DNA of 48,841 nucleotides from Serinicoccus chungangensis. GTDB lineage: Bacteria; Actinomycetota; Actinomycetes; Actinomycetales; Dermatophilaceae. The notes beneath the pieces were generated by a model, which saw only the letters and a program-made list of their open reading frames with translations, was not told the origin of the DNA and ran no database searches. How positions within the stretch are numbered: the stretch's first letter is position 1; the number at the start of each line of letters is the position of its first letter. This document shows positions 1 through 35,288 of the stretch, piece after piece. Location of the stretch: contig NZ_LQBL01000001.1 of assembly GCF_001483745.1 (NCBI RefSeq), forward strand, positions 1-48,841. The letters run 5' to 3'. A program made the translations under genes and the position numbers.

Positions 1-43
<43 letters not shown>

Positions 44-1250: not shown

Positions 1251-1829
1251 ATGTCCCAGCACGACCAGAGCCAGCAGACCGAGCAGGACCACCAGCAGCA
1301 CCAGAAGCACGAGCGGAAGATGTACCTGGTCTTCGCCGCGATGATCACCACCTCGACGGTCACCATGTTCCTGCTGACCTACACCAACGCCTTCACCTGG
1401 TCGCACATGACGTTCAGCGAGGAGCGGGTCTACATGGCCCTGCTCATGGGCTCCGCGATGGCCATCATCATGCTCGGCTTCATGTGGGGGATGATGTACA
1501 AGAACGTCAAGGTCAACCTCGCGATCATCGCCGGTGCCCTCGTCCTGGGCCTGACCGCCCTGTGGCTCTCCCGCTCCCAGACGCTGGTCGACGACCAGGC
1601 CTACATGAACGGGATGATCCCCCACCACTCCATCGCCATCCTCACCAGCGAGCGCGCCGACATCGACGACGTCCGGGTCCGCGAGCTCGCCGACGAGATC
1701 ATCAAGGCCCAGCGCAGGGAGATCGCCGAGATGAAGTGGCTCGTCGACGACATCGAGAGCAACGGCGAGGTCACCACCGAGCAGGAGGCCCAGCAGCGGC
1801 CCGTCCCCGAGTTCGAGGGCACGCCGTGA
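1251..1829 (+). CDS. Membrane-anchored DUF305 protein
   Basis: A 192-residue protein. The N terminus (1-22) is rich in His and Gln. Three hydrophobic segments follow at about 25-48, 60-83 and 87-105. The DUF305 core comes next, with the signature YMNGMIPHHSIAIL at about residues 118-131 and a helical tail. DUF305 is a ferritin-like four-helix domain with conserved His/Met residues, frequently found in copper-resistance clusters and suspected to bind metal outside the membrane. Start ATG 1251 has a GAGGAAGGAA ribosome site. A candidate CsoR operator lies just upstream, so it may have its own promoter. A second, lipoprotein-type DUF305 gene is at 19734-20375. Confidence 0.85.
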   Translation: MSQHDQSQQTEQDHQQHQKHERKMYLVFAAMITTSTVTMFLLTYTNAFTWSHMTFSEERVYMALLMGSAMAIIMLGFMWGMMYKNVKVNLAIIAGALVLGLTALWLSRSQTLVDDQAYMNGMIPHHSIAILTSERADIDDVRVRELADEIIKAQRREIAEMKWLVDDIESNGEVTTEQEAQQRPVPEFEGTP

Positions 1830-2735: not shown

Positions 2736-4151
2736 TCACAGGGAGACGGTGGCCCAGAGGGCTCCCGCTCCGACGCCGAGGAGGAGGCTCAGGGCTGCGG
2801 TCCCGATCGCCGACGTGCGCGACCAGCGCGCTGGTGTGCCGGCGTCCTCCTCGGGCTGGCCCGCTCCCTCCGCGCGGTTGTAGAGCGGTGCGATCCAGCG
2901 CAGGTAGTAGAAGAGGCTGGCGACAGTGTTGACGAACACGAGCACGGCCAGCCAGGCGTACCCGGCGTCCCAGGCGGCGGCGGTGGTGGTGAGCTTGCCG
3001 ACGAAGACCACGGTGGGTGGGGTGCCGACGAGGCCGAGGAGGGCCACGACCAGGGCTGCGCCCAGCCACGGATGGGTTCTGCCCATGCCCCGGTAGGAGC
3101 GCAGCTCGCGCCGCTGGGGGAAGGCGCTGGTGACGGCGAACGCCGAAAGGTTGGTGACGGTGTAGCCGGCCAGGTAGAGCAGCAGCGAGGGCAGGGCGAG
3201 GTCGCTGCGCCCGGCGACCGCGACCGGCACGAGCAGGTAGCCCACCTGACTGACGGTGGACCAGCCCAGCAGGCGCCGCGGGTCGCTCTGCCAGTAGGCG
3301 GCGAGGTTGCCCAGCGTCATGCTGGCCGCGGCCAGCAGCGCGACCAGCAACGGCCAGGCCAGGGTGTCGGGAAGGAGCGCGACGAGCCGGTATGCCGCGA
3401 CGACGGCCCCGATCTTGGGCACGGTGGTGAGGAACGCCGCCACGGCTCCGCCCGCGCCCTGCGCCGCGTCGGGGACCCAGAAGTGCCCTGGCGCCCCTCC
3501 GGCCTTGAACAGCAGCCCGCCCAGCACCGCCACCACGCCGGCGGCGACCACCCCTGCGGGTGCGTCGGCAAGGCGGTCGGTCAGCTCGGCGTAGGACGTG
3601 GTGGCCGACACGCCGTAGAGCAGGGTGACCCCGGTGAGCAGCAGGATGCCGAAGAGGGCGCCCAGCAGGTAGGTCTTCATCGCGGCCTCGGCGCCCAGGG
3701 GCGTGCGGACGATGCCGATCAGGCCGTAGAGGGGGATGCTGGCCAGCAGGAACCCGACGGTCACGACGAGCAGGTCGCCTGCACCCGCCAGGATCAGGGT
3801 GCCGGTGGTGGAGAACAGCAGCAGCGCGTAGGTCTCGCTCTCCCGCGGGGTGCCGGCGATCTCGTCGGAGGCCAGCGCCAGCACGATAAGGGTGCCGAGC
3901 GCGGCGACGATCCGGGCGATGCCGGTGGTGGTGTCGACGGTGAAGGTGCCTTCCATCGCCGATCGGGCCGGGCCGGGCAGGTCGAGGGCGGCGAGGGCGG
4001 CCGCCACGAGCAGGGCGGCGGCGGCGACGGCACGGGTGACCCACTGGCGGGTCCTCGCCAGGAAGGACCCGCCCAGCAGGGCCACGAGCCCACCGAGGAA
4101 CAGGACGATCTCCGGTGCGAGCAGGGCCGGCCGCATGGCCATGGACTCCAC
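2736..4151 (-). CDS. nuoN: NuoN-like antiporter-type subunit
   Basis: A 471-residue polytopic protein of the proton-antiporter family (complex I subunit N/ND2), last gene of the nuo-like operon. It has the conserved Lys region (FKAGGAPGHFWVPDAAQG) of the discontinuous helix. It lacks the TM5 Glu of canonical NuoN (usually LELLS): the aligned stretch is VGFLLASIPLY, which has no acidic residue. Whether this subunit still pumps protons is therefore uncertain. GTG start at 4151 is chosen because GGAGG lies 9 bases upstream; ATGs at 4142 and 4136 are alternatives. It starts 6 bases after the nuoM stop. The gene ends 13 bases from the converging potassium channel pseudogene. Confidence 0.88.
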   Translation of the reverse strand: MESMAMRPALLAPEIVLFLGGLVALLGGSFLARTRQWVTRAVAAAALLVAAALAALDLPGPARSAMEGTFTVDTTTGIARIVAALGTLIVLALASDEIAGTPRESETYALLLFSTTGTLILAGAGDLLVVTVGFLLASIPLYGLIGIVRTPLGAEAAMKTYLLGALFGILLLTGVTLLYGVSATTSYAELTDRLADAPAGVVAAGVVAVLGGLLFKAGGAPGHFWVPDAAQGAGGAVAAFLTTVPKIGAVVAAYRLVALLPDTLAWPLLVALLAAASMTLGNLAAYWQSDPRRLLGWSTVSQVGYLLVPVAVAGRSDLALPSLLLYLAGYTVTNLSAFAVTSAFPQRRELRSYRGMGRTHPWLGAALVVALLGLVGTPPTVVFVGKLTTTAAAWDAGYAWLAVLVFVNTVASLFYYLRWIAPLYNRAEGAGQPEEDAGTPARWSRTSAIGTAALSLLLGVGAGALWATVSL

Positions 4152-4157
4152 CGCGGT

Positions 4158-5654
4158 CTACCTCCCGACGAGCTGGACGAGGACCTGCGCCGCGGGCTCG
4201 ATCACCTCGAGCAGCGGGCGGGGGAGGACACCGATGAGCAGCGAGAGTGCCAGCAACGGCCCGACGGCCCACACCTCGGCGGGACGCAGGTCGCCGAAAC
4301 CGACGGAGGCGCCCTGGGTGGCGCCGGTGAAGATGCGCTGCAGCGCCCGGAGGAACAGTGCGGCGGTGATGAGGATGCCCAGCAGCGCGACCGCGGTGAC
4401 CGGTGCCGCGGCGATGCTGCCGGTGAAGATCTGGAACTCGGCGATGAAGCCGGACAGCCCCGGCAGGCCGAGCGAGGCGAACGCCCCGACGGCGAACAGC
4501 GCCGCGAGCCTGGGGGCAGGGTCGGCCAGACCACCGTAGGCGCCCATGTCGTAGGTGCCGGCCCGCTCCCACAGCACCCCCGCGATGAGGAACAGGGCGG
4601 CGGTGACCAGGCCGTGGCTGACCATCTGGGTGGCGGCACCGGTGACCGCCACGGACCGCGCCTGCGCGGTGTCGCCGGCGACGATCCCGGCGGCGCCGAC
4701 GGCGAGGACGATGTAGCCCATGTGGTTGACCGAGGTGTAGGCGACCATGCGCTTGAAGTCGGTCTGGGCCAGCGCGACCAGGGCGCCGTAGACGACGGAG
4801 ACGATGCCGACGACCACGATGACCCAGGCCCAGGCCCGCCAGGCCTCGGGCAGCATCGGCATCGCGATCCGGACGAACCCGTAGGTGCCCATCTTCAGCA
4901 GGACGCCGGCCAGGACGGCCGAGCCGATGGCGGGTGCGTCGGTGTGGGCCGGGGGCAGCCAGGTGTGGAACGGCACCGTGGGGGTCTTGACCGCCAGCCC
5001 GAGCAGGATCGCCGCCAGCACCAGCGCACCAGCGGTCGACGACCCCTCCAGCGGGGTCTGCTCGGCCAGCTCCACCATGTCGAAGGTGTGCGGGTCGGCG
5101 GCGACGTAGAGACCGATGAAGCCGGCCAGCAGGGCCAGGGAGCCCAGAAAGGTGTAGAGGAAGAACTTCATCGCCGACCGGCCGGCGTCCCCGTGGCCCC
5201 ACCCGGCGATCACGAAGTACATGCCCACGATGGACAGGTCGAAGAAGAGGAAGAACAGGATCAGGTCGGCGGCGACGAACAGGCCCAGGCTCACGCTCTG
5301 CAGGAACAGGAACAGCGCCGCCTGGGTCCGAGGCCGGTCCTCGCTGCGCAGCGCGAAGACCGCGCAGGCGAGGAAGACCACCGCCGTCATCGCCACCAGC
5401 GGCAAGGACAGCCCGTCCACCCCGACGTGGTAGCTGCTGTCCACCCCGGGGATCCACTGCGCGCGTTCCTCGAAGGCAAGCTGACCCTGGCCCGGCGGTT
5501 CGTAGGTGAGCCACACCGTGGCGACCAGCGCGAGGTCGGCGGCGGCGACGGCCACCCAGGTCCACCGTGCCGCCCCGTCGCCCAGCCGTGGCAGGGCCAG
5601 AAGGGCCAGCGCGGCGGCCAGGGGCAGGAAGACGATCAGACTGAGCACGTTCAC
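4158..5654 (-). CDS. nuoM: NuoM-like antiporter-type subunit
   Basis: A 498-residue polytopic membrane protein of the NuoM/ND4 family. It contains the channel Lys motif AVKTPTVPFHTWLPPAH and the following LLKMGTYG. The TM5 position that is normally WE is FD (FFLFFDLSIVGMYF), a conservative Glu to Asp change. The GTG start at 5654 overlaps the nuoL stop by four bases (GTGA), showing translational coupling. In complex I this subunit forms one of the proton channels of the membrane arm; here no dehydrogenase arm genes accompany it. A much longer open frame continues upstream on the same strand but is only an antisense-style shadow of nuoL. Confidence 0.93.
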   Translation of the reverse strand: MNVLSLIVFLPLAAALALLALPRLGDGAARWTWVAVAAADLALVATVWLTYEPPGQGQLAFEERAQWIPGVDSSYHVGVDGLSLPLVAMTAVVFLACAVFALRSEDRPRTQAALFLFLQSVSLGLFVAADLILFFLFFDLSIVGMYFVIAGWGHGDAGRSAMKFFLYTFLGSLALLAGFIGLYVAADPHTFDMVELAEQTPLEGSSTAGALVLAAILLGLAVKTPTVPFHTWLPPAHTDAPAIGSAVLAGVLLKMGTYGFVRIAMPMLPEAWRAWAWVIVVVGIVSVVYGALVALAQTDFKRMVAYTSVNHMGYIVLAVGAAGIVAGDTAQARSVAVTGAATQMVSHGLVTAALFLIAGVLWERAGTYDMGAYGGLADPAPRLAALFAVGAFASLGLPGLSGFIAEFQIFTGSIAAAPVTAVALLGILITAALFLRALQRIFTGATQGASVGFGDLRPAEVWAVGPLLALSLLIGVLPRPLLEVIEPAAQVLVQLVGR

Positions 5655-7588
5655 CTCACCGTGAGCAGGAGCAGGACGCCGACCGCGAGGACCGCGGCGG
5701 CCTGGACGTAGTAGTGGTGCAGCTGCCCGCTCTGCGGGCGTCGCGCCAGCCGGCCGAGCTGGCGCACCCGTGCCGCGAGCTGCTCGACGGCGCCGTCGAG
5801 CCACCGGTCGTCCGCACGCCCGGCACGCTGGGCCGCCTCCACGCTCGCCCGGGAGCCGGACTCCACGGCGCCGTCGAGCACCCGGTCGTCGAACCTCGCC
5901 GCCCGGCGCGCCAGACCGAGGGCGCCCGCCGCGGACCCGGTCACGGCCCGGTCCAGAGCGTGGTCGTCGAAGTGCGCCGCCGCCTGTGCCAGCGCCAGGG
6001 TCGGCCGGACGACGAGAGTCCGGGTCGCCGGCTCCAGACCCAGCCAGTCCTGCGCCCACCCGGGGCGGGGCGCTGGACGCCACCAGACGAGCGCCAGCAC
6101 GGCCAGCGCGATCCCGGCCGAGGCGAGCATCTCCACGAGGGTGGGGTGCAGCGGTTCCTCCCCGAGCGCGCGGGCGAGCGTGTCGCCCACCGGCGGCAGC
6201 GCGAGCAGACCGAGGACCAGCGCACCCGCGGCGAGCACGACCATCGGTGCGCGTTCGAGCACTCCGACGCGGCCCGTGCCGCGCTCCTCCTCGTCGAGGT
6301 GCCCCTCGACCACGGCGCGCTCCGCGGCAGGGACGGGCCGCCACAGGACGACCAGGATCTTGCCGGCGTAGGCGGCCGACAGGGCGGCGGCGGCCAGTCC
6401 CACGGCATACAACCAGGGTGAGCGCGCCAGGGCCGCGGCCAGGACGGCGTCCTTGGTGGCCCACAGGGCCAGGGGTGCGACCCCGGCCAGCGAGAGCACC
6501 CCGAGCGTGCTGGCCCACCCGACCAGCGGCCAGCGCCGGCCGACCCCGCGCAGGCCGGTCAGGTGCTTGGTGCCCAGCGCGGTGAGCCAGGCGCCGGCGG
6601 CCAGGAACAGCAGCGCCTTGGTGGAGGCGTGCGCCACCAGGTGTGCCGCACCGCCGCCGACCGAGCCCAGCCCGGCGCCCATCACCACGAACCCCAGCTG
6701 GGCCGAGGTGGAGGCCGCGAGCAGCTGCTTGAGGTCCTGCTGGGCCAGCGCGACCGCCCCGAGCAGCAACGCGGTCACCGCGCCGGTCCAGGCCGCGGCC
6801 GGGGCGGCCCAGCCCGTGGAGGCGAGCAACGGCTCGGTCCGCAGCAGCAGGTAGCCGCCCATGGCGACCATCGCGGCCGAGTGCAGCAGCGCACTGACCG
6901 GGCTCGGGCCCTCCATCGCCCGGGACAGCCAGAACGAGAACGGCAGCTGCGCCGACTTGCCCAGCGCCGCGACCAGGACACCGGCCGCCACCACCTGCCG
7001 CCACCCCTCGCTGCTCTCGGGCAGGTCGGCCAGGGCCAGCCCGGCTCCACCGGCCAGGGCAGCGCCGGCCGCGAGGTAGAGGCCCAGGTCGGCGGCGCGG
7101 GTGGTCACGAACGCGGTGATCCCGGCGGAGACCCGGTGCTGCTCGCGCCACCAGAACCCGATCAGGGCGAACGACGTCGCGCCCATGACCTCCCAGGCGA
7201 GCAGCAGCGCCGGCAGCGTCTGCGCGGTGCCGGTCAGGAGCGCGCTGGAGGCGAAGATGAGCATGAGGCCGTGGAACCGTGCCCGCGACCGCTGGATCTC
7301 ACCCGCCGCGAAGAGCAGCACCAGGAGGGTGACGATGGCGACGGTCGGTACGACCAGCGCCGACAGCGCGTCCACGCCGAGGGCCAGGTCGCTGCCGGCC
7401 ATGAAGGGCACCGACACCTGCGGTCGGGCACGAGCCACGAGCAGCGACAGGGCAGCGGTCAGGCCGGCCGTGGCCAGGGATGTCGGCACCGCGGCACGCT
7501 CGAGACGCGAGATGGCCAGTGCACCGCCGACGACCGCGGGCAGCAGCACGAGCAGCCAGAGGGCGGCCTGAGCCATCGACGGGCTCAT
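5651..7588 (-). CDS. nuoL: NuoL-like antiporter-type subunit with repeat-bearing C-terminus
   Basis: A 645-residue member of the NuoL/ND5 family. Key residues are present: WE in LLAWEVMG, Lys in GKSAQLPFSFWLSRAMEGP, the ALLHSAAMV helix and a Lys in WATKDAVLA. After the last conserved helices, the C-terminal region (roughly residues 510-620) holds three short repeats of the form FDDxxLDxAV (HFDDHALDRAV, RFDDRVLDGAV, RADDRWLDGAV). A final hydrophobic helix follows, in the position of the lateral-helix/TM16 part of NuoL. ATG start at 7588 overlaps the nuoK stop by four bases (ATGA). The SAQLPF/PSPVSALLH region separates it from nuoM and nuoN. Confidence 0.93.
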   Translation of the reverse strand: MSPSMAQAALWLLVLLPAVVGGALAISRLERAAVPTSLATAGLTAALSLLVARARPQVSVPFMAGSDLALGVDALSALVVPTVAIVTLLVLLFAAGEIQRSRARFHGLMLIFASSALLTGTAQTLPALLLAWEVMGATSFALIGFWWREQHRVSAGITAFVTTRAADLGLYLAAGAALAGGAGLALADLPESSEGWRQVVAAGVLVAALGKSAQLPFSFWLSRAMEGPSPVSALLHSAAMVAMGGYLLLRTEPLLASTGWAAPAAAWTGAVTALLLGAVALAQQDLKQLLAASTSAQLGFVVMGAGLGSVGGGAAHLVAHASTKALLFLAAGAWLTALGTKHLTGLRGVGRRWPLVGWASTLGVLSLAGVAPLALWATKDAVLAAALARSPWLYAVGLAAAALSAAYAGKILVVLWRPVPAAERAVVEGHLDEEERGTGRVGVLERAPMVVLAAGALVLGLLALPPVGDTLARALGEEPLHPTLVEMLASAGIALAVLALVWWRPAPRPGWAQDWLGLEPATRTLVVRPTLALAQAAAHFDDHALDRAVTGSAAGALGLARRAARFDDRVLDGAVESGSRASVEAAQRAGRADDRWLDGAVEQLAARVRQLGRLARRPQSGQLHHYYVQAAAVLAVGVLLLLTVR

Positions 7589-7887
7589 CGGGTCAGGTCC
7601 GTGGCCATGTCGGTCATGTCGGCCTGCCGTTCCCGGTGCAGGAGAGTGGCGACCGCGAAGCCCATGGCCATCTCCAGGGTCATCGCGGCGATGATCACCA
7701 GGAGTAGGACCTGGCCGGTCGGGGTGGGCGCCACGAACCACCAGAACCCGGCGGCGGCCAGGATGATCCCGTTGATCATCAGCTCCAGGCCCATCATCAC
7801 CATGACGACGACCTGCTGGGAGATCGCACCGTACAGGCCGACGCTGAAGATCGCGGCGGCGAGGAGCAGGGTGGCCTCCAGGGTCAT
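7585..7887 (-). CDS. nuoK: NuoK-like subunit
   Basis: A 100-residue, three-TM protein of the NuoK/ND4L (also MrpC-like) family. Both membrane Glu positions of NuoK are retained: MMGLELMINGI (TM2) and AMTLEMAMGFAVATLLHR (TM3). These are part of the central charged axis that relays protons in complex I. ATG start 7887 overlaps the nuoJ stop by four bases, and its own stop overlaps nuoL. Several Met residues are clustered in TM2 (VVVMVMMG), in keeping with the Met-rich character of the adjacent NuoJ. Confidence 0.92.
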   Translation of the reverse strand: MTLEATLLLAAAIFSVGLYGAISQQVVVMVMMGLELMINGIILAAAGFWWFVAPTPTGQVLLLVIIAAMTLEMAMGFAVATLLHRERQADMTDMATDLTR

Positions 7888-8447
7888 CGGCCCACACCTC
7901 CGGGCTGAGGGTCCTCGGGGGTGGGCTGCCTCAGGTCGTCGCCGAACCGGTCGTAGCGCGTGCGGTGCGCCGCGAGCACGACGCCAGCCACGATGGTGGC
8001 GACCATGACCGGGCTGATCACGGCCATCACCAGCATCTTCGGGCCCATGAGAGCCTCGCCGAGGGCCTCGGTGACCTCTGGTGGTGGGCTGCCGCGGCGG
8101 GTGGGCCAGTCCACCAGGAGGATCCCGGCCGCCAGCACTGCGAAGGTGAGGACCGCGGTCGCGACGGCGGTCCTGTTGCTGTGGACCATGCTCATCGGCA
8201 TCAGGGCGGGGTTCATGCCCATGAACATGACCATGTAGACGGCCATGACGGCCATCTCCATGACCATCATCAGGACGGTCACCACGCCGACGTAGTTCTG
8301 CTGCAGGAACAGCACCTGCAGGCCCACGGCGATAAAGGACAGTGCGAGCGCGTACGTGGCGCGGGCCATCGAGTCGACGTAGAAGACCGCGGCGCCGCTG
8401 ATCACGGCGACCAGACCGAGGCCCCAGAAGGCGATGTCTGCGACCAC
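7884..8447 (-). CDS. nuoJ: NuoJ-like subunit, methionine-rich
   Basis: A 187-residue NuoJ/ND6-like membrane protein with about five helices. The family feature LQQNYVGVVTVLMMVMEM matches the conserved YxGAVMVLF helix. It is strikingly rich in Met: 12 Met in about 31 residues from VLMMVMEM through LMPMSMV. GTG at 8447 is chosen as the start because GGAGG stands 8 bases upstream and it falls 2 bases after the nuoH stop. An upstream extension in the same frame would run into nuoH and has no homology. The last four bases overlap the nuoK start. The Met clusters might reflect copper exposure or binding, which is inference. Confidence 0.9.
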   Translation of the reverse strand: MVADIAFWGLGLVAVISGAAVFYVDSMARATYALALSFIAVGLQVLFLQQNYVGVVTVLMMVMEMAVMAVYMVMFMGMNPALMPMSMVHSNRTAVATAVLTFAVLAAGILLVDWPTRRGSPPPEVTEALGEALMGPKMLVMAVISPVMVATIVAGVVLAAHRTRYDRFGDDLRQPTPEDPQPGGVGR

Positions 8448-8449
8448 GC

Positions 8450-9430
8450 TCAGGCCCTCCAGACGGCGATGACGGCGACGAGCAGGTCCTGGACCAGCAC
8501 GGCCGGGAGCAGCACCATCCAGCCCACCTCCATGAACATGTCGGGCCGGAAGGCCGGCAACCGCCGCTGCAGCCAGACCAGCAAGGAGAGCACGGCCAGG
8601 GTCTTGACCAGTACCCACGCCCAGTCAGGCAGCAGCGGACCAGCACCTCCGCCGAGGAACATCGGGACCGAGAACGCCGCACCGGCCCCCAGCAGGGCGT
8701 AGCGACCCGTCTCGAACACCAGCCGGTCCACCCCGGACAGCTCGGCCCGCACGCCGCCGGCGATGTCGCTGCCCAGCGCCGGGGCGAACGGGCCCCATAC
8801 CGAGAAGGCCGCGACCCCGAGCAGGTAGACGAGGAAGGCCACCGGCATCCACACCGCGAACCACAGGCCGTCCTGGGCTGCGGCGACCGTGCCCACGTTG
8901 AGGCTCTGCGCCGCGATCGCCGGAGCGACTAGCGCAAACATCAGGGGCAGCTCGTAGCCCAGCCCGTGCGCCAGGAAGCGGTAGCCACCGACCAGCGAGT
9001 GCGCCGAGTTGGCGCCCCACCCGGTCAGCCACACCAGGGCCCAGACCAGGACGTCCATGGCGTTGAACCACATGACCCCCACGTCCAGGTCGAAGATCGT
9101 CCACCGCCCCAGCGGGACCACCGCCACCATCAGCGCAGCCGTGACGATCAGCCCTGCCCCGCCGACGCGCCACAGAAGGGTGTCGGCCTGCACGGTGGTG
9201 CGACGTCGTTGCCGCATCAGTCGCGCGGCCTCGCCAAAGGGGCGCGCCGCGCCGCTCGCGCCACCGCCCGGGCCGCCGCTGGAGCGTGCTGACAGGACGC
9301 CGTCGAGCATCCCTGCGACGAGGACCAGGGCACCGAGGATGGCCACCGCGGCCAGCGCCCAGCCGGGCGCCACGGTCACGACTGGGGAGTCCGGCACGCC
9401 TGGGCTCTGCACCAACGCCAGCTCACCCAT
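8450..9430 (-). CDS. nuoH: NuoH-like subunit, divergent
   Basis: A 326-residue polytopic protein of the NuoH/ND1 family, which normally links the quinone site to the membrane arm. Recognisable blocks include GWGANSAHSLVGGYRFLAHG and LGYELPLMFALVAPAI (canonical: SNSKYALLGALRAAAQxISYE). The matrix-side loop, normally [21 protein letters not shown], is degenerate: SDIAGGVRAELSGVDRLVFETGRYAL keeps AEL and an ETG but has lost the DLPEAE core. This fits a complex whose quinone chamber has been remodelled. The ATG at 9430 overlaps the end of the NuoB/D-like gene by 8 bases. Confidence 0.85.
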   Translation of the reverse strand: MGELALVQSPGVPDSPVVTVAPGWALAAVAILGALVLVAGMLDGVLSARSSGGPGGGASGAARPFGEAARLMRQRRRTTVQADTLLWRVGGAGLIVTAALMVAVVPLGRWTIFDLDVGVMWFNAMDVLVWALVWLTGWGANSAHSLVGGYRFLAHGLGYELPLMFALVAPAIAAQSLNVGTVAAAQDGLWFAVWMPVAFLVYLLGVAAFSVWGPFAPALGSDIAGGVRAELSGVDRLVFETGRYALLGAGAAFSVPMFLGGGAGPLLPDWAWVLVKTLAVLSLLVWLQRRLPAFRPDMFMEVGWMVLLPAVLVQDLLVAVIAVWRA

Positions 9431-10802
9431 GGGCCGCCTCGTGCTGGGCGTGGTGGGCCCGCAGCTCGTGGAGGTCGAGGCTGGCCAGGACCAGACGTGC
9501 AGCCGCGAGGTCGAGTCCGACGACCAGCTTCCCCAGGTGCTCGACACGGACAGCCGGGCGGTCGCCGAGTCGGGAGGCCGCTGCCGCACGGTCCACCATG
9601 CGGACCAGCCTGTCGTAGGTATCGCCCGCGGAGTCCGCGGGCAGCCCCTGGTGGCGGACCTCCTCCTCGGTCAGCGGACGTAACCCCCTCAACGACCAGC
9701 GCAGCAGCCGTGAACGACGCACCCGGCGCTGGAGCCGCTCAAGGCCCCTCAGGTCCACCGGGTCTTCCCCGGCCCCCAGTGCCGCGTCGCGGAGCGTCCG
9801 TGCCTGGGCCGCGGCATCCTCCCACCCCGCCAGCGCCAGGAAGGAGACGATGTTGTCGAGCGCGCGGGCCCGGGCGTCGGTCTCGTCGCCGGCCTCGTCC
9901 GCGGCGCCGAGGACCTCAGCGCGTGCCTCGGTCACGACGTCGCCCTGCAGCGAGCAGTGCAGCACCAGTCCTGCCGGCCAGTAAGGCAGCACCGGGCCGA
10001 GCCGGACCTTCAGGACGTCCATCTCCAGACCGTCCCTGTCCTCCCCGCCCCCCGCCAGAGGGATTCCGCCAGGGGACATGTCCATGCCGTCGTGGCCGCC
10101 GTGACCTCCGTGGTCGCCGTGGCCTTCGTGTCCACCGCCTCCGCCGTGGCCTTCGTGCCCACCGCCTCCACCGTGGCCTCCGTGCCCCTCTGCGTCCTCA
10201 TGGGCGTCGGGCTCCTCGGGACCTGCAGGGTGCCTGTGGTCTCCCTCGTGGCCGGCATGCTCCTCGTGGCCGGCATGCTCCTCGTGGCCGGCATGCTCCT
10301 CGTGGCCGGCATGCTCCTCGTGGCCGGCATGACCCTGGTGCTCGCTGTCACCATGACCTGAGTCATCCGCGTCACCCGGCTCAACGTGGTGGTCGTGGCC
10401 ACCGTGCGCGTGCTGGGCCTGGCTGTCGTGGGGCTGGCGTGCGAGCAGATCGTCTGTCCTGGGTCGGTCCGCCGCGTCGTGCCGGTGGCGGTCGGGGGAG
10501 AGAAGGAGTGCGTGTGCCTCGTCAAGGACGGCCGCGACGTCCTCGACGCGAAGGGCCTGGACGGTCACCCGCGGCCCTGGCATCTGGTGCCACAACTGGT
10601 CGACGGCCTCGCTGAGCCGTGGCCCGGGAGTGCCGCACACGACGAGAACGTCAGCGTCTGCCGGGGAACGGGCCACTTGCCATCCACGCGCGAGCACGGC
10701 GTGCTCGGCCACCATGCGCGTGCGTCCCCATCCGGGCACCTCGACCAGCAGGGCGTGCGCGTACCGCGCGGCGACGCGCGAGCTCGCCTCGCTCAGACCC
10801 AT
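9423..10802 (-). CDS. NuoB-like/NuoD-like fusion with His-rich linker
   Basis: A 459-residue protein with no exact counterpart that I recognise. Residues 10-95 resemble the NuoB fold (ARSPADADVLVVCGTPGPRL then MPGPRVTV, matching SPRxADLLIVAGT...MPEP). The four Cys ligands of cluster N2, including the tandem CC, are absent. Residues 104-240 form a linker with about 30 His between 125 and 237, including tandem AGHEEH and Gly-rich GGHEGHG blocks. Residues 258-440 resemble the N-terminal part of NuoD/group-4 hydrogenase large subunit (LKVRLGPVLPYWPAGL, RALDNIVSFLALAG, RRVRRSRLLRWSLRG). ATG at 10802 overlaps nuoA by 10 bases. It takes the place of nuoBCD in the operon and probably caps the membrane arm; the linker may bind metal. 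The NuoB/NuoD assignment is from motif reading only. Confidence 0.72.
   Translation of the reverse strand: MGLSEASSRVAARYAHALLVEVPGWGRTRMVAEHAVLARGWQVARSPADADVLVVCGTPGPRLSEAVDQLWHQMPGPRVTVQALRVEDVAAVLDEAHALLLSPDRHRHDAADRPRTDDLLARQPHDSQAQHAHGGHDHHVEPGDADDSGHGDSEHQGHAGHEEHAGHEEHAGHEEHAGHEEHAGHEGDHRHPAGPEEPDAHEDAEGHGGHGGGGGHEGHGGGGGHEGHGDHGGHGGHDGMDMSPGGIPLAGGGEDRDGLEMDVLKVRLGPVLPYWPAGLVLHCSLQGDVVTEARAEVLGAADEAGDETDARARALDNIVSFLALAGWEDAAAQARTLRDAALGAGEDPVDLRGLERLQRRVRRSRLLRWSLRGLRPLTEEEVRHQGLPADSAGDTYDRLVRMVDRAAAASRLGDRPAVRVEHLGKLVVGLDLAAARLVLASLDLHELRAHHAQHEAAHG
10245..10334. repeat. 18-bp tandem repeat, five units
   Basis: Five tandem copies of an 18-base unit (CTCGTGGCCGGCATGCTC on the plus strand; the last copy ends differently) lie inside the NuoB/NuoD-like gene and encode the (AGHEEH)n part of its His-rich linker. 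Near-identical units suggest recent expansion by slippage, so copy number may vary between strains. Confidence 0.9.
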
Positions 10803-11137
10803 CGCAGGGCACCTTCCCGCCACGCCCAGAGGACGGCGACGAACAACGCAGCGAGGAAGAGGAACATCTCGACGACCGCCGTGGTGCCGATCTCGGCGAC
10901 GACGACGGCCCAGGGGTACATGAACAACATCTCGACGTCGAAGGCGAGAAAGAGGAGGGTCGCCAGGTACCACCGCACGTGGTACCGGGACAGCGCGTGC
11001 TGCTCGGGAATCCAGCCCGACTCGAACGGGAGCACTTCGAGGGGATCCGGCGTGACCGCCGTCCGACGGTGCAGCCCGTACAGCACAAGCACGGGTACGA
11101 CGGCGGCGACGGCCATCACGACGACACCCAGGTACAT
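10793..11137 (-). CDS. nuoA: NuoA-like subunit lacking the loop Cys
   Basis: A 114-residue, three-TM protein of the NuoA/ND3 family, first gene of the operon. The acidic helix motif FLAFDVEMLFMYPWAVV is intact (canonical FVIFDVEVAFLYPWA). The TM1-TM2 loop reads PFESGW where complex I has YECG, so the conserved Cys that marks the quinone-site loop is replaced by Ser. This is consistent with loss of the normal quinone-reduction chemistry. ATG 11137 has GGGAGG upstream. The next gene overlaps it by 10 bases. Confidence 0.92.
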   Translation of the reverse strand: MYLGVVVMAVAAVVPVLVLYGLHRRTAVTPDPLEVLPFESGWIPEQHALSRYHVRWYLATLLFLAFDVEMLFMYPWAVVVAEIGTTAVVEMFLFLAALFVAVLWAWREGALRWV

Positions 11138-11654: not shown

Positions 11655-11728
11655 GGGAAGGCCTCACGCATGTCCGCCTGGTTCTCTGGGGCGGGACAGA
11701 TGCCTTGGGTGTTGTGGAGGTGTGGAGC

Positions 11729-12079
11729 ATGACCACGCAGACGTACCGGGTGCTCGGTCTGACCTGCGGTGAGTGCCTGGCCCGGATTCTGGACAGCGTG
11801 CGCAGCCTGAGCGGTGTGCAGGCGGTCGCCGTGAACCTTGTCGGAGGTGGTGGCCGCGCGCGCCTGAGGGTCGCAGCACGGCATGCTCTTGACACCGAGA
11901 CCGTCACACGGGCCGTCGAGGGGGCCGGCTTCGTCATGGATGTCGCATCGTCGCGCCGGGCAGCTCCGATGGTCCGAGGCGCGGGAGCAGGCTCATCACC
12001 ACCGCCGGGGGGTCCGGGGGACCGCCGTCACCCTCCGGGCGTTGATGCGCTGCCCGTCGCTGCGGGACGGCCCTTGTGA
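11729..12079 (+). CDS. HMA-domain metallochaperone-like protein 1
   Basis: A 116-residue protein. Residues 3-70 form a heavy-metal-associated domain with the ligand motif GLTCGECLARI (Cys13, Cys16) in the CopZ/Atx1 position, followed by a Gly/Pro-rich, probably disordered tail. The canonical MTCxxC is LTCGEC here. ATG at 11729 has GTGGAGG upstream. Its stop overlaps the lgt start (GTGA), so HMA, lgt and lnt form one translationally coupled operon behind CopR box A. A close paralogue at 21779 also starts next to an lgt-like gene. It probably binds Cu(I) in the cytosol; its target is unknown. Confidence 0.82.
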   Translation: MTTQTYRVLGLTCGECLARILDSVRSLSGVQAVAVNLVGGGGRARLRVAARHALDTETVTRAVEGAGFVMDVASSRRAAPMVRGAGAGSSPPPGGPGDRRHPPGVDALPVAAGRPL

Positions 12080-24217: not shown

Positions 24218-24250
24218 ATAGTTGTCCCGTAGCGGAAGGAGGTGCCCACC

Positions 24251-24562
24251 ATGGCGTTCGAGGAGACGACCGCGGGCCCGGCAGGTCCCGGGTACGTGAA
24301 CAACAAGGACGCCCAGCTCAACCGGCTGCGCCGGATCGAGGGTCAGGTCCGCGGGCTGCAGCGGATGGTGGACGCCGACTCGTACTGCATCGACATCCTC
24401 ACCCAGGTCTCCGCGGCCACGAAAGCGCTCGAGGCGGTGGCCCTCGGCTTGCTCGAGGACCACCTGCGCCACTGCCTCGCGCACGCGAGCAACGACCCGG
24501 CACAGCTGGACCAGAAGGTGACCGAGGCCTCCGCGGCCGTCGCCCGGCTCATCCGCTCCTGA
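24251..24562 (+). CDS. csoR: Copper-sensing repressor CsoR (copy 1)
   Basis: A 103-residue all-helical repressor of the CsoR/RcnR family. Cu(I) ligands are all present: Cys46 (SYCIDIL), His71 and Cys75 (DHLRHCL), matching the C-H-C set of Mycobacterium tuberculosis CsoR. The DNA-contacting basic helix reads LNRLRRIEGQVRGLQRM. Cu(I) binding releases it from DNA. ATG 24251 is preferred to the GTG three codons upstream because GGAGG stands 8 bases before it. First gene of csoR-copZ-copA, behind its own operator. Confidence 0.95.
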   Translation: MAFEETTAGPAGPGYVNNKDAQLNRLRRIEGQVRGLQRMVDADSYCIDILTQVSAATKALEAVALGLLEDHLRHCLAHASNDPAQLDQKVTEASAAVARLIRS

Positions 24563-24598
24563 TCAGACCCAACCCGCAACGACCGAGAGAAGAACCAC

Positions 24599-24934
24599 AT
24601 GGACACCGCAAGCACCCCCAGTACCCAGCTGCCGATGGCTCAGGCCGGCGGGTGCGCCTGCTGCGCAGCACCCGAGACCAGCCAGGCCACCACCACCGTC
24701 CAGGAGGACACGATGAACACCCAGACCTTCGCCGTCACCGGTATGACCTGTGGTCACTGCGCCAGCGCCGTGACCAGCGAGCTGCAGGGCCTGCCCGGCG
24801 TCACCGACGTCACCGTCGACCTGGTCGCCGGCGGCACGTCCACGGTCACGGTCGCCAGCGACGCTCCGCTGGCTGAGTCCGACGTCGCAGCCGCCCTCGA
24901 CGAGGCCGGCGACTACCAGCTCGCCAGCAGTTGA
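24599..24934 (+). CDS. copZ: CopZ-type copper chaperone with Cys-rich N-terminus
   Basis: A 111-residue protein. Residues 42-108 form an HMA domain with [11 protein letters not shown] (Cys51, Cys54), the Cu(I) chaperone fold. The N-terminal extension carries a GGCACCAA motif (Cys19, Cys21, Cys22) that could bind extra copper. A second ATG at 24713 has a good GGAGG site and would give a standard 73-residue CopZ, so two forms may be made. It delivers Cu(I) to CopA and CsoR in the cytosol. It is 36 bases after csoR, and its stop touches the region of the copA start. Confidence 0.92.
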
Positions 24935-24969
24935 GCACCCCTGCGGCCAACGGGCAGGAAGGAACAGGA

Positions 24970-27255
24970 GTGGCCACCCAGGTAGGGACGTCGGCCGAGC
25001 AGACGCGCGATGTCGAGCTGCTGGTCGGGGGGATGACGTGCGCATCCTGCGCCAGCCGCATCGAGAAGAAGCTGAACAAGCTGCCCGGCGTCACGGCCAC
25101 CGTGAACTACGCCACCGAGAAGGCCAAGGTCAGCTTCGGTGGAGATGTCGAACCGGCCGACCTGCTCGCCACGGTGGAGGCGGCCGGGTACACCGCCTCC
25201 CTTCCGGCCCCGGCCCCTGCGAGGTCCGACGAGGATCAGGCGCCAGGGGCCGGGGACGGTGAGGCCGACGCCTGGCGCCAGCGGCTGCTGGTCTCGGGCG
25301 CGTTGACCGTGCCGGTGGTGCTGATGTCGATGGTCCCGGCGCTGCAGTTCGACAACTGGCAGTGGGTGTCCCTGACCCTGGCCTCCCCGGTCGTGGTGTG
25401 GGGCGCGCTGCCGTTCCACCGCGCGGCCTGGACCAACGCCCGCCACGGCGCCGCGACGATGGACACCCTGATCTCGGTGGGGGTGACCGCGGCCTACCTG
25501 TGGTCGCTGTGGGCGCTGCTGTTCACCCACGCCGGCACGACCGGGATGCGGATGCCGTTCGAGCTGCTGCCCAGCCGCTCTGGCGGCGAGGCGCACATCT
25601 ACCTGGAGGTCGCGGCCGCGGTCACCACCTTCATCGTCGCCGGCCGCTACCTCGAGGCCCGCGCGAAGCGGGCCTCCGGTGCGGCGCTGCGGGCCTTGCT
25701 GGACCTGGGCGCCAAGGAGGTGGCCGTGCTGCGGGACGGCCCGGGCGGGCCCGTGGAGTCGCGGGTGCCGGTCGCCTCCCTCGCGGTCGGCGACCGGTTC
25801 GTCGTCCGGCCGGGTGAGAAGATCGCGACGGACGGTGCCGTGGTCAGCGGCACCTCGGCGGTCGACGCCTCCATGCTCACGGGTGAGTCGGTCCCGGTCG
25901 AGGTCGGCCCGGACGACAGCGTCGCCGGAGCCACCGTCAACGTTGGCGGGCGGCTGGTCGTCCGGGCCACCCGCGTCGGCTCCGACACGCTGCTGGCGCA
26001 GATGGCGCGCCTGGTCGAGGATGCCCAGAACGGCAAGGCCGAGGTGCAGCGCCTGGCCGACCGCATCTCCGCGGTGTTCGTGCCGATCGTGATCGGGCTG
26101 TCCCTGGCCACCCTGGTCGCCTGGCTGGTGGCCGGTGCCTCCGCGGCCGCGGCGTTCACCGCCGCCGTGGCCGTGCTGATCATCGCCTGCCCGTGCGCCC
26201 TGGGGTTGGCGACGCCCACGGCGCTGCTCGTCGGCACCGGCCGCGGCGCCCAGCTGGCAATCCTCATCAAGGGCCCCCAGATCCTGGAGTCCACCCGCCG
26301 GGTCGACACCGTGGTGCTGGACAAGACCGGCACGGTCACCACCGGCCGGATGGGCGTCCTCGGCGTCCACCCCGCTGACGGCGAGTCCGTCGAGGAGGTT
26401 CTGGCGCTGGCAGGCGCCTTGGAGGACGCCTCGGAGCACCCCATCGGCCGGGCGGTCGCTGACCACGCCCGGGCCGCCGGGCAGCACCTGGCCCCGGTGC
26501 ACGACTTCGCCGCGCACGGCGGCAACGGCGTCTCCGGCGTCGTCGAGGGCCGGGGGGTCCTGGCAGGCCGCCGCTCCTGGTTGGCCACCGAGTGGGCGCT
26601 GAGCATGCCGGCGGACCTCCTCGAGGCCGCCGAACGGGCCGAGGCCGAGGGGCGCACCCCCGTCTGGGTCGCCTGGGACGGCCAGGTCCGCGCGGTGGTC
26701 GTCGTGGCCGACACGATCAAGGATACCTCGACGCAGGCGATCACCGAGCTGCGCCAGCTCGGGCTGCGACCGGTGCTGCTGACCGGCGACAACACCCGGG
26801 CGGCCCAGGCCGTGGCGCACGCGGTCGGCATCGCGCCCGGTGACGTGGTCGCCGAGGTGCTGCCGGCCGACAAGGTCGCCGCGGTCAGACGCCTGCAGGA
26901 CCAGGGCGCGACCGTGGCCATGGTCGGCGACGGGGTCAACGACGCCGCCGCCTTGGCCCAGGCCGACCTGGGACTGGCGATGGGCACGGGCACCGACGCC
27001 GCCATCGAGGCCTCCGACCTGACCCTGGTCACCGGTGACCTGCGCGCCGCCGCTGACGCCATCCGCCTGGCCCGGGCCACCCTGCGCACCATCAAGGGCA
27101 ACCTCTTCTGGGCGTTCGCGTACAACGTCGCAGCCCTGCCGCTCGCGGCGGCCGGCCTGCTCAACCCCCTCATCGCCGGCGCCGCGATGGCGTTCAGCTC
27201 GGTGTTTGTGGTCACCAACAGCCTGCGACTACGCCGTTTCGACCCCAGCCGCTGA
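24970..27255 (+). CDS. copA: Copper-exporting P1B-type ATPase CopA
   Basis: A 761-residue Cu(I) exporter. An N-terminal HMA domain with [12 protein letters not shown] (Cys24, Cys27) is followed by eight expected TM helices, the TGES actuator motif, and the transport motif CPC (Cys407-Pro-Cys409). The phosphorylation site DKTGT (Asp451), the SEHP nucleotide-domain motif and MVGDGVND hinge are intact. GTG 24970 has AGGAAGG upstream; an earlier TTG at 24931 overlapping the copZ stop is possible but lacks a site. Third gene of the CsoR-controlled operon. It lacks the cupredoxin and YHS modules of the other ATPase at 35335. Confidence 0.95.
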
Positions 27256-32498: not shown

Positions 32499-33995
32499 AT
32501 GACCCGCCCCTCACGACGCCAGCTCATCATTGCCGGCCTTGGCCTGGGCGCCTCGGCGACCCTGGCCGCCTGCTCCGGGGACGCCTCGGCCACCTCGCGC
32601 CCGGCTGCCTCCTTCCCACGTCCCGAGCCCGTGGCCCCCTCGCCGGGACAGTCCGTGGCGAGCGCCCGCCTGACCGCTGCTCCGGTCACCCTGAACCTGG
32701 GCGGCAGGACGGTGCAGACGTGGGCCTACGGGGACACCGCCCCGGGCGCGACGTTGCGGGCGACCGCCGGGGACCTGCTGCGGGTCACCCTGGACAACCA
32801 GCTGCCCGCCGACACCACCGTCCACTGGCACGGTGTCCGGCTGCGGCCGCAGGCCGACGGCGTGCCCGGCCTGACGCAGGACCCGGTCGGGACGGGGAAG
32901 AGCTTCCTGTACGAGTTCACCGCGCCCGACCCGGGCACCTACTTCTTCCACCCCCACGTCGGCACCCAGCTCGACCGCGGCCTGTACGCGCCCCTGATCA
33001 TCGACGACCCGGCCGAGCCCGGCGACTACGACCTGGAATGGGTCGTGGTCCTGGACGACTGGATCGACGGCACCGGCACCACCCCCGACGAGGTGCTGGA
33101 GCAGCTGGTCGCCGACGGCGCTTCCGGCACCGCCGGCATGGACCACGGGGCGATGACCGGCATGGACCACGGCTCGATGTCAGCAGGACAGGACGGGGCC
33201 CCCTGGGGCACCGACACCGGTGACGTGAGCTACCCCCACTACCTCATCAACGACAGACTGCCCACCGACCCGACGGTCCTGCAGGGCAGGGCCGGGCAGC
33301 GGGTGCGGCTGCGCGTCATCAGCGCCGCCTCGGACACCATCTTCGCCGTGGCCCTGGGCGGGCACCGCATGACCCTGACCCACACCGACGGCTGGCCGGT
33401 CAGGCCGCAGCAGACCGACGCCTTCTACATCGGCATGGGGGAGCGCTACGACGCGGTCGTCACCCTGGAGCCGGGTGTCTTCCCGCTCGTGGCTCGCCCG
33501 GTCGGCCGGAGCACCGGCGGGCAGGGGCTGGCGGTGGTGCGCACCGCCACCGGCGCCGTGCCCGCGGCCGACGTGAGCCCGGGCGAGCTGGACGGGAACG
33601 TCCTGACCGCCTCGCAGCTGGAGCCGGACGACGCCGCCCGGCTCCCCGCCAAGGGCCCCGACCTCACCGCGGCGCTGACGCTCGGAGGGTCGATGGCGCC
33701 CTACCTCTGGACGATCAACGGCGCCCCGTACGGGCAGAACGAGCCGCTGCGGGTGGCGCCCGGGCAGCGCCTGCGGCTGAACGCGTCGAACATGACGATG
33801 ATGCCGCACCCGCTGCACCTGCACGGGCACACCTTCGCCCTGCCCAACGGGCTGCGCAAGGACACCCTGCTCATGGCTCCCATGGAGTCCGTGGCGCTCG
33901 ACCTCGACGCCGACAACCCCGGCGACTGGCTGATCCACTGCCACAACACCTACCACGCCGAGGCCGGGATGATGATCGACCTGAGGTACACATGA
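32499..33995 (+). CDS. copO: Multicopper oxidase, copper-tolerance type
   Basis: A 498-residue extracytoplasmic laccase-like oxidase. The N terminus has a Tat-like twin Arg (SRRQLIIAGLG) and a lipobox-like LAAC at residue 25, so it may be a Tat-exported lipoprotein. Copper motifs: HWHG (about 107-110), HPHVG (usually HSH), HPLHLHGH and HCHNTYHAEAGMM near the C terminus, with an axial Met. A Met/His insert (MDHGAMTGMDHGSM) may feed copper to the type 1 site. It probably oxidises Cu(I). I use copO by analogy with the CopR-regulated oxidase of Corynebacterium. ATG 32499 has GGAAGGAA; its stop overlaps the next start. Confidence 0.92.
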   Translation: MTRPSRRQLIIAGLGLGASATLAACSGDASATSRPAASFPRPEPVAPSPGQSVASARLTAAPVTLNLGGRTVQTWAYGDTAPGATLRATAGDLLRVTLDNQLPADTTVHWHGVRLRPQADGVPGLTQDPVGTGKSFLYEFTAPDPGTYFFHPHVGTQLDRGLYAPLIIDDPAEPGDYDLEWVVVLDDWIDGTGTTPDEVLEQLVADGASGTAGMDHGAMTGMDHGSMSAGQDGAPWGTDTGDVSYPHYLINDRLPTDPTVLQGRAGQRVRLRVISAASDTIFAVALGGHRMTLTHTDGWPVRPQQTDAFYIGMGERYDAVVTLEPGVFPLVARPVGRSTGGQGLAVVRTATGAVPAADVSPGELDGNVLTASQLEPDDAARLPAKGPDLTAALTLGGSMAPYLWTINGAPYGQNEPLRVAPGQRLRLNASNMTMMPHPLHLHGHTFALPNGLRKDTLLMAPMESVALDLDADNPGDWLIHCHNTYHAEAGMMIDLRYT

Positions 33996-34849
33996 GCACC
34001 CGCGCGCGGCGCCCGCACCGGGGTCTGGCGGCGGTGGCGGCCGCGGCCCTCGGCCTCGCTCTCGCGGGGTGCGCCCCGACCGCCGACCAAGACTCTTCGG
34101 AGACAGGCGCGGGCATCGCGATCACCCACATCCACGCCGCCGTCCGCGACCCGGGCAGCGGCGACCTGTTGCTCGCGACGCACCAGGGCCTCTTCCGTCA
34201 GGACGGCGCCGACCTGGTGGCCGTCGGCCCGGTCATGGACCTGATGAGTTTCACCGTCGACGCCGACGGCACCTACTACGCCTCTGGCCACCCCGGCCTG
34301 CAGGCGGACCTGCCCGAGCCGCTCGGGCTGATCACCTCCGCAGACCAGGGCACGACCTGGACCGTGGCCTCCCGCGGAGGCGAGTCGGACTTCCATGCCC
34401 TGACCGCCTCCGGCAGCACGGTGGCAGGCTACGACGGGACGTTGCGCACCTCCTCCGACCGGCGCACCTGGCGGCAACGCCCGATCGCCGCGCCGCCACG
34501 CGCGCTGGCCGCCTCCCCGGACGGGACGCTGCTGGCCACCACGTCGGCAGGGCTGCTGCGCAGCACCGACGACGGTGCCACCTGGAGCACCCTGACACCG
34601 CCGGAACCGGCGGTCCTGGTGGCCTGGGCCGACACGAGCACCGTGGTGGCCCTGACCACCGGCGGCAGGATCGCCACGAGCACCGACGCGGGAAAGAGCT
34701 GGACCCTGGGAGCGACCGTGCTCGGCGAGGCCGGGGCGCTGTCCGCCGGGCGCACCAGCGAGGGGTCCCTGGAGGTGATCGCCGTGGTCGGCGACACCGT
34801 GATCCGCACCCTGGACGAGGGCGCCACCACCGAGGTCCTCGTGGGGTAA
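33992..34849 (+). CDS. Asp-box (BNR) beta-propeller lipoprotein
   Basis: A 285-residue lipoprotein (lipobox LALAGC, residue 27). The body contains Asp-box repeats SADQGTTW, STDDGATW and STDAGKSW, and looks like a sialidase-type propeller of the F510_1955 kind, often annotated as exo-sialidase. Catalytic sialidase residues are not evident, so a structural or binding role is more likely. It starts at ATG 33992, overlapping the oxidase stop by four bases, so it is tightly coupled to the oxidase. An early conserved ITHIHAAVRDP motif with two His could bind metal. Confidence 0.82.
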   Translation: MSTRARRPHRGLAAVAAAALGLALAGCAPTADQDSSETGAGIAITHIHAAVRDPGSGDLLLATHQGLFRQDGADLVAVGPVMDLMSFTVDADGTYYASGHPGLQADLPEPLGLITSADQGTTWTVASRGGESDFHALTASGSTVAGYDGTLRTSSDRRTWRQRPIAAPPRALAASPDGTLLATTSAGLLRSTDDGATWSTLTPPEPAVLVAWADTSTVVALTTGGRIATSTDAGKSWTLGATVLGEAGALSAGRTSEGSLEVIAVVGDTVIRTLDEGATTEVLVG

Positions 34850-34877
34850 CCACGCAACATGACGAAGGAGCAGCACC

Positions 34878-35168: not shown

Positions 35169-35211
35169 GCGGCTGCACGGCAGGCGCCACATTGCCTGTC
35201 CGATCGTGCAC

Positions 35212-35233
35212 CGCCATCGAATCTCCACCGTCC
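35212..35233 (+). promoter_or_regulatory. CopR-type direct-repeat box H
   Basis: CGCCATCGAAT / CTCCACCGTCC, 101 bases before the ATPase fusion gene. A CsoR-type palindrome lies between them, so this promoter seems to have dual control, like that at 21680-21764. Confidence 0.7.
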
Positions 35234-35271
35234 GACCACCGGACGGACAGACGGACCGCTGTATCGTCGAG

Positions 35272-35288
35272 ATACCCCCCGAGGGTAT
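35272..35288. promoter_or_regulatory. CsoR-type operator before ATPase fusion
   Basis: ATACCC-CCCGA-GGGTAT: 6-bp arms with a 5-base spacer, 46 bases before the start codon at 35335. A TATCGT-like -10 lies just upstream. Confidence 0.65.

Follow-up and report, generated by a model that had tools for sequence, protein, structure and literature searches.

The window analysed here, the first 48,841 nucleotides of contig NZ_LQBL01000001.1 of the actinobacterium Serinicoccus chungangensis (NCBI RefSeq assembly GCF_001483745.1), carries within its first 11 kb a cassette of eight genes, nuoA-fusion-nuoHJKLMN, on the minus strand, with neighbours that overlap or nearly do so. All of the products except the fusion exceed curated Pfam cut-offs as membrane subunits of respiratory complex I (A, H, J, K and L/M/N). 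A first inspection of the letters alone, referred to below as the sequence-only reading, had described eight coupled genes lacking nuoC, E, F, G and I, a description that holds: all eight are present on one strand, the gene content of the window places none of those five in the cassette or adjacent to it, and no NADH module (NuoE, F and G) stands with the operon here or at 26 related loci. Judged from its residues and its neighbours, the cassette would translocate ions without redox chemistry and in connection with Cu(I), most likely by Cu(I)/H+ antiport, a reading to which we give a probability of about 0.5.

The system is found well beyond this organism. In an even sample of the class (394 genomes, S. 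chungangensis included) the cassette occurs in 26 genomes at 27 loci, and the same gene order recurs at 26 loci besides the window, with one genome (G387) holding two; two loci are cut by contig ends, L044 behind nuoK and L060 within nuoN. A wider search returned 534 genome stretches that encode a relative of the window's NuoH, so the family is not rare, and the best 80 of these are called the named loci below.

All seven membrane subunits of complex I (A, H, J, K, L, M and N) are present, as are most residues of the E-channel and the antiporter subunits, the exceptions being the Glu of transmembrane helix 5 (TM5) in NuoN, the loop acids of NuoH and Tyr59/Gly61 of NuoJ. Comparison was made with E. 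coli and the genome's own canonical copies, using 27 sequences for A, H, J and K and 26 for L, M and N, the window included; residue counts start at codon 8450 for NuoJ, 7884 for NuoK and 9427 for NuoH. In E. coli numbers, NuoL keeps E144, K229, K342 and K399 in 26/26 sequences, NuoM keeps K234, K265 and E407 in 26/26 with E144 replaced by Asp in 26/26, and NuoN keeps K247 and K395 in 26/26 and K217 in 24/26. The E-channel residues are similarly retained: NuoK E36 in 27/27 and E72 in 26/27 (here E34 and E71), NuoA D79/E81 in 27/27 (window D67/E69) and NuoH E157 in 26/27 (window E159). Two losses claimed by the sequence-only reading were borne out by the alignments. The TM5 Glu of NuoN (E133) is Leu in 25/26 sequences and Phe in one, and in the NuoH loop E216 and E218 are lost, D213 is kept in only 5/27 and E220 appears as Asp in 26/27, with E241 changed to Arg in 27/27. 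A third claimed loss, that of a loop Cys in NuoA, fails as a marker, since E. coli NuoA has Cys only at positions 27 and 28 and none in the loop.

The gene in second position encodes a protein that combines a NuoB-like domain, a His-rich linker and a shortened NuoD-fold domain. NuoB is the top PDB match for the fusion alignment A2 (hmmsearch, E 5.4e-6), profile-profile comparison of the N-terminal domain with NuoB gives a probability of 95% (hhalign), and residues 1-122 are modelled with a predicted local distance difference test score (pLDDT) of 75-96 per block of ten. The fold of the C-terminal domain is that of NuoD by structure comparison (VIA-align rows cover residues 251-451); by sequence alone NuoD is weak, with an hhalign probability of 18% (P 0.0013) and a Pfam 49 kDa match in 5/25 fusions (best E 0.013). 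Chance likeness to NuoB and NuoD was rejected by hmmsearch against the PDB, hhalign and structure comparison, and the search thus recovered the match to NuoB and the NuoD-like remnant that had been proposed. Regarding the alignments, L046 was excluded from A2, the profiles and the His counts as its fusion holds a run of N, and the L045 fusion, identified later, is missing from A2. A further alignment (A3) contains the fusion of the window together with 66 of the 68 that were extracted. Both nuoA and nuoH are called at 74 named loci, and at six of these (L079, L098, L100, L101, L116 and L123) the fusion was missed by the motif used to pick fusions out, that of L100 being later read and found present; six further named loci have no called nuoA.

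Across 25 aligned fusions the NuoB-like domain has no conserved Cys set that could serve as ligands of cluster N2, also as proposed. GPVLPxWPAG sits where E. coli NuoD has GPNHPSAHG, and the HPxxHG loop of NuoD, which belongs to the quinone site, is absent. Because there is no conserved Cys set and no HPxxHG loop, and because NuoH E218 is gone, E216 replaced and E241 turned into Arg, the cassette is almost certainly redox-dead. The plain reading of these residues is a cassette that would be kept for ion movement, without quinone chemistry, and ion translocation is very likely. The linker, on which the sequence-only reading had laid emphasis, is among the least conserved parts. The window's fusion contains 44 His and 2 Cys, while the His count ranges from 5 to 71 among the members counted, and the His-rich linker was set aside as the key feature on this account. 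Fusion His is higher in copper context, with a median of 29 (12 loci) vs 9 (13 loci), p 0.0009. On the opposite strand of the His-rich repeat (window 10092-10361, plus strand) lies an open frame that is called as a gene here and at other loci, a possible reason for the ease with which the fusion is mis-called.

The feature that does most to narrow down the function is a cluster of Met residues around the E-channel, which the sequence-only reading missed; its proposal of a pump, antiporter or channel tied to metal, with no sign of NADH or quinone chemistry, otherwise stands. In complex I, the bend in TM3 of NuoJ is marked by two conserved residues, a Tyr and a Gly. Here TM3 and the following loop read approximately MMxMEMxxMxxYMxMFMxMNPxxLMPMxMxH, a motif present in 27/27 sampled sequences and in 81/81 from the named loci plus the window. 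A 24-residue stretch of this helix holds 8-10 Met vs 0-3 in 14 canonical NuoJ (E. coli and the 13 of 30 fetched NuoH loci with a NuoJ frame fitting the pattern), Met makes up 9.8% of NuoJ residues across the family, and Met 62, 66, 69, 73 and 77 fall on a single helix face. New Met residues are also invariant among distinct sequences of NuoA (M70 and M73; 92/92), NuoH (M163 and M194; 104/104) and NuoK (28, 30, 68 and 72; 96/96), and nearly so in NuoJ (97-99 of 99), where M84 is Met in 97/99 and M135, M139 and M142 are Met in 97 and gapped in 2.

Such invariance is unusual, as Met normally swaps readily with Leu or Val. Fully invariant consensus positions in NuoJ number 14/17 for Met, 6/22 for Leu, 1/31 for Val and 1/27 for Ala; outside the hub Met is unremarkable, being invariant at 3/10 positions in NuoM and 1/3 in NuoN. 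NuoL, M and N have a low Met content (1.5-2.0%), so the hub is not a composition effect. Comparison with the references yields 24 new Met, 20 of which fall in A, J and K (p 2e-12). For seven of the nine new Met in A, K, H and L an E-channel or TM5 acid is at most 4 residues away, which 0/100000 random placements reached, in a test whose acids and distance were picked after the pattern had been seen and which covers neither NuoM Met 272 (25/26) nor NuoJ. Altogether the hub, which lies between the region of the quinone site and the antiporter subunits, comprises about 20 near-invariant gained Met (NuoJ TM3 and TM5, NuoK, NuoA and NuoH), the majority sitting in NuoJ or no further than four residues from an E-channel acid.

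The remainder of the window forms a copper island, as the sequence-only reading had stated, with two P-type ATPases, a multicopper oxidase, a CsoR-family repressor, an HMA protein and a DUF305/CopM-like protein identified. The survey that it had suggested, for the same gene order beside copper genes, gave copper genes near 13 of 26 loci vs 1 of 20 control windows (p 0.001), a count whose reference proteins were partly chosen from these neighbourhoods and which therefore favours the loci. Both flanks were read at 20/26 loci, the 13/26 were merged by hand from listings, and at L050 the copper genes lie 10-12 kb from the cassette. Independent of the choice of references is a Pfam tally of 138 of 140 listed neighbours (two very long ones excluded), in which DUF305 (6) and multicopper oxidase (5) lead and CsoR (3) is among the commonest.

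Regulatory sequence points the same way. The motif TACCCN5GGGTA, which we take to be of RicR/CsoR type, was tried beside four other patterns and scored at up to 1 mismatch within 300 bp. Sites of this type usually stand at genes that excess copper induces. The motif occurs upstream of nuoA or its directon at 16/93 distinct loci (10 exact) vs 1/350 control genes (0 exact), Fisher p 7e-11. At named mycobacterial loci it precedes 10/24 nuoA vs 14/318 other genes there (p 4e-7), and at non-mycobacterial loci the figures are 6/69 vs 1/350 (p 1e-4), the six being Gordonia, Janibacter, Humibacillus and three other genomes. Two of these three, L057 and L060, show no copper genes in the stretches read. 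In the same set of loci the motif stands before CopZ in 7/11 cases, CsoR in 5/13, CopA in 4/20 and multicopper oxidase in 4/25 vs 35/1508 other genes (nuoA hits included). In the window an exact copy (35273-35287) precedes the second P-type ATPase, and the motif was not found at the canonical nuoA or nuo2 of the S. chungangensis genome. With the hub and the neighbours, these sites suggest that the cassette is probably copper-linked, a confidence lowered slightly because the motif is concentrated in mycobacteria.

Table 1. Features of the cassette and of the copper island, in positions of the window.
Feature	Position	Strand	Basis
NuoA-like, 114 aa	10793..11137	-	Pfam Oxidored_q4, E 1.4e-26
Fusion gene, 459 residues	9423-10802	-	sub-threshold Oxidored_q6 match only, E 0.23
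Fusion residues 1-122, NuoB-like domain lacking the Cys ligands of N2	10437..10802	-	profile vs PDB, profile-profile, model
Fusion residues 123-255, His-rich disordered linker	10038..10436	-	pLDDT about 44-55 per block
Fusion residues 256-459 with stop codon, NuoD-fold domain of about half length	9423..10037	-	
NuoH-like	8450..9430	-	Pfam NADHdh and residue comparison
NuoJ-like	7884..8447	-	Pfam Oxidored_q3
NuoJ TM3 and following loop, Met-rich, residues 61-90 (from codon 8450)	8181..8270	-	MMVMEMAVMAVYMVMFMGMNPALMPMSMVH
NuoK-like	7585..7887	-	Pfam Oxidored_q2
NuoL-like antiporter subunit	5651..7588	-	Pfam Proton_antipo_M
NuoM-like antiporter subunit	4158..5654	-	Proton_antipo_M; NCBIfam NDH_I_M, 488 bits vs cut-off 264
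NuoN-like antiporter subunit	2736..4151	-	Pfam Proton_antipo_M
C-terminal part of multicopper oxidase near contig end	63..857	+	homologues beside other loci
DUF305 membrane protein, CopM-metallochaperone-like	1251..1829	+	PF03713, E 1.2e-9; NF049983 CopM, E 1.1e-10, below cut-off
HMA-domain protein, divergent from nuoA	11705..12079	+	PF00403, E 1.3e-7
CsoR-family repressor, HMA-like protein, P-type ATPase	24242..27255	+	PF02583, PF00122, PF00403 (repressor, ATPase)
Small HMA-like protein	24713-24934	+	gene call and CxxC motif only
Multicopper oxidase, BNR-repeat protein, second P-type ATPase with cupredoxin and YHS domains	32499..38094	+	

The frame at 63-857, presumably a multicopper oxidase from the His/Cys pattern at its C-terminus, is seemingly cut at the start of the contig, which opens with a run of G (window 1-43) and is probably an assembly edge. 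A gene at 38527-40449 encodes the Na+/H+ antiporter NhaA with a DsbA-like thioredoxin domain attached to it.

Within the S. chungangensis genome a search for a complete nuo operon, also suggested at the outset, found nuoA-N on contig C11 (A to M at L033, N at L278) and, about 33 kb beyond it, a second cluster, nuo2, with NuoI and a NuoB bearing CC ligands of the iron-sulfur (FeS) type; normal respiration need therefore not depend on the cassette. No NuoD was found adjacent to nuo2 (L034, L066), and a NuoD-like frame lies on another contig (G000:C31:62146); a comparable separate location is reported for nuoD2 of Streptomyces ambofaciens (PMC8388888).

The fusion search matched 31 genomes, of which S. 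chungangensis and 25 others hold the cassette; four (G306, G226, G198 and G367) are weak matches without nuo genes, three of them in the His-rich part. G235 (L053, G235:C27) has a lone fusion fragment without other cassette genes, perhaps a relic. By profile, 36/394 genomes matched the fusion, 27 strongly (the 26 cassette genomes and G235) and nine weakly in the NuoB part only, and the NuoJ profile matched 18/296, all among the cassette holders and G235. Within the eight sampled genomes of its own family, only S. chungangensis carries the cassette. A decaying or broken operon was rejected, as the ratio of nonsynonymous to synonymous substitution rates is 0.08-0.45 for all eight genes (vs five relatives) and residues are invariant family-wide. 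In the NuoH tree the family forms a single clade (support 79) whose stem is very long and whose neighbour is the genome's own nuo2 (support 100), a placement open to long-branch error. Lysobacter (L100 and L101; two gammaproteobacteria) carries the cassette, on a long contig, which suggests horizontal transfer out of actinobacteria, and the L100 copy has cation-efflux-like and P-type-ATPase-like genes nearby. A 6 kb contig of an Acidobacteria metagenome-assembled genome (L069), whose NuoH is 90% identical to that of the window, is likely a wrongly binned actinobacterial contig.

Compared with known systems, the cassette shares with respiratory complex I (E. coli and mycobacterial) the seven membrane subunits in order, most E-channel and antiporter residues and the NuoD fold; it differs in lacking the N-module, NuoC, NuoI and the N2 ligands, and in having the NuoD quinone loop replaced, a NuoD of about half length and the Met-rich hub. 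By function-defining features it is not a complex I, yet it keeps the ion machinery. Closest in the NuoH tree, on a long branch, are the NuoEFG-less nuo2 clusters of actinobacteria, the copy of this genome included. That 11-subunit type of complex I is marked by an FeS-bearing NuoB and by NuoI, and nuo2 keeps both the CC ligands and NuoI, whereas the cassette has neither a NuoI gene nor the NuoB cysteine set. Hydrogenase-related Ehr, Ech and Mbh complexes have no NuoA-type subunit and an FeS-bearing small subunit, in contrast to the cassette, in which NuoA is present and the Cys set absent. Mrp antiporters consist of MrpA-G without NuoA or NuoH, a composition that the cassette, with NuoA, NuoH and a NuoB/D cap, does not share. 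CusA and CTR-type copper transporters have Met ligands in membrane helices; their likeness to the cassette lies in chemistry only, and we know of no sequence relation between them. Mrp is described as a relative of complex I that exchanges Na+ (or K+) for H+ without redox chemistry (PMC7419157), and CusA as a proton-driven antiporter for copper (PMC7558416).

The gene set itself is published, contrary to the first impression that no such system had been described. A membrane-only NDH-1 and its gene order have been in print since 2012 (PMC3314556; Ian 2014, PMC4018334; PMC6002675; PMC6676996): Penn and Jensen described in that year a 'Partial 2' nuoAHJKLMN operon of marine actinomycetes (PMC3314556), and Almeida et al. 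in 2019 gave the order nuoA - hypothetical - nuoHJKLMN (PMC6676996), the same as here, with the hypothetical gene between nuoA and nuoH included. The published carriers Kocuria marina SO9-6 and K. polaris CD08-4 hold the cassette (L113 and L117), as does a Salinispora (L135). In the available parts of these papers the middle protein is hypothetical, and residue analysis, a copper role or a Met hub does not appear. One carrier comes from copper-rich mine fluids (Almeida et al., PMC6676996) and another has the source 'copper miner' (Sun et al., 2018; PMC6002675), no copper link being drawn in the portions available. A search of the open-access literature, which does not prove absence, found no paper on the operon and copper, on a Met-rich NuoJ or Met hub, or on the identity of the hypothetical protein. 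The gene order and the membrane-only NDH-1 idea are thus already known; new here, as far as we found, are the NuoB/NuoD identity of the middle protein, the Met hub and the proposed copper role.

In the proposed mechanism, a complex I membrane arm would have lost its electron input and been rebuilt around copper, the NuoB/NuoD cap being kept as a fold without redox residues, its domains joined by a variable His-rich linker. Cu(I) would enter the hub from the cytosol via the cap linker and the LMPMxMxH loop of NuoJ and bind along the Met-lined E-channel, replacing the quinone-driven charge step. The movement of copper and the flow of protons through NuoL, M and N would be coupled, the most likely net reaction being Cu(I) export against proton influx. 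That Cu(I) itself passes through the membrane via the cassette has slightly less than an even chance. More tentative is the proposal of a new class of transporter driven by the proton motive force, in which the quinone/E-channel site has become a Met-lined copper path and a redox-dead cap collects cytosolic metal.

The main rival to Cu(I)/H+ antiport is copper-gated ion flow, in which Cu(I) binding at the Met hub would open or block a proton (or Na+/K+) pathway through L, M and N without copper being transported, and would adjust pH or the proton motive force once FeS respiration is poisoned by copper. The Met hub, the motif and the copper context fit it equally, the variable His-rich cap suits a tunable sensor better than a transport path, and a potassium-channel-like gene is found near 12/80 named loci; the Met stripe, however, spans most of TM3 (residues 62-77), beyond the needs of one regulatory site, and we consider gating unlikely. 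Less probable again is the function proposed in print for the partial NDH-1, a proton/sodium pump or antiporter for sea-water, salt and osmotic adaptation (PMC3314556, PMC4018334, PMC6676996). The antiporter subunits L and M do keep the ion path, and the operon is reported from marine strains and missing in some terrestrial relatives (PMC3314556, PMC6676996). This function would leave the Met hub, the motifs and the copper neighbours unexplained, many carriers are not marine (Mycobacterium, Micromonospora) as judged from names rather than habitats, and no sodium-transporter family is among the 25 commonest neighbour Pfam families shown. Moreover, no redox drive is seen, so that 'generates an ion motive force' lacks an energy source. 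A Cu(I) importer or loader, driven by proton flow and feeding multicopper oxidase and other cuproenzymes, would account for the frequent multicopper oxidase and DUF305/CopM-like neighbours but is most improbable, as the CsoR/RicR-type sites common to CopA, CopZ and CsoR here indicate induction by excess copper. Least credible is a redox enzyme with another donor, or a membrane arm to which the complete complex I encoded elsewhere would lend its subunits. The genome does hold a complete nuo operon and nuo2, but the docking subunits are replaced by a fused, shortened cap, with the NuoD HPxxHG loop changed across 25 fusions and the NuoH acids across the 27 NuoH aligned.

Several observations weigh against a copper-driven antiporter. 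The motif sites are mostly mycobacterial (10/16 loci and 8/10 exact ones), with six exact sites at -76 to -81, and so represent few independent cases; the p-values given treat related loci as independent. Among the 43 named loci outside the mycobacteria whose upstream stretch is long enough, the motif lies directly before nuoA in only 2, and the window's nuoA is without it, the best match having 4 mismatches within 300 bp and 3 in the whole intergenic region. No copper gene was seen at 13/26 loci in the stretches read. The Met residues could possibly serve other soft metals or structure, and the NuoJ model is weak (pLDDT 61, predicted template modelling score 0.41), too poor to place them in space. 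NuoN has lost its TM5 Glu, a residue that matters for pumping in complex I. Finally, in the parts available, the published accounts connect the operon with growth in sea water rather than with copper (PMC3314556, PMC4018334, PMC6676996).

How the quinone site of complex I is coupled to the distant antiporter subunits via the E-channel is a long-debated question, and the cassette represents a natural experiment on it, with the coupling machinery mostly kept, the electron chemistry erased and the NuoJ hinge now an invariant Met/Glu stripe. If copper does move through the complex or gate it, the membrane arm could be driven by an externally added ion, and the coupling question would become testable without redox chemistry. 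The cassette would then be a copper-handling complex of a kind new for actinobacteria, correcting its reading as an 'NADH-quinone oxidoreductase' or 'marine adaptation gene' in the papers cited, and would amount to a complex I running on a metal ion instead of electrons.

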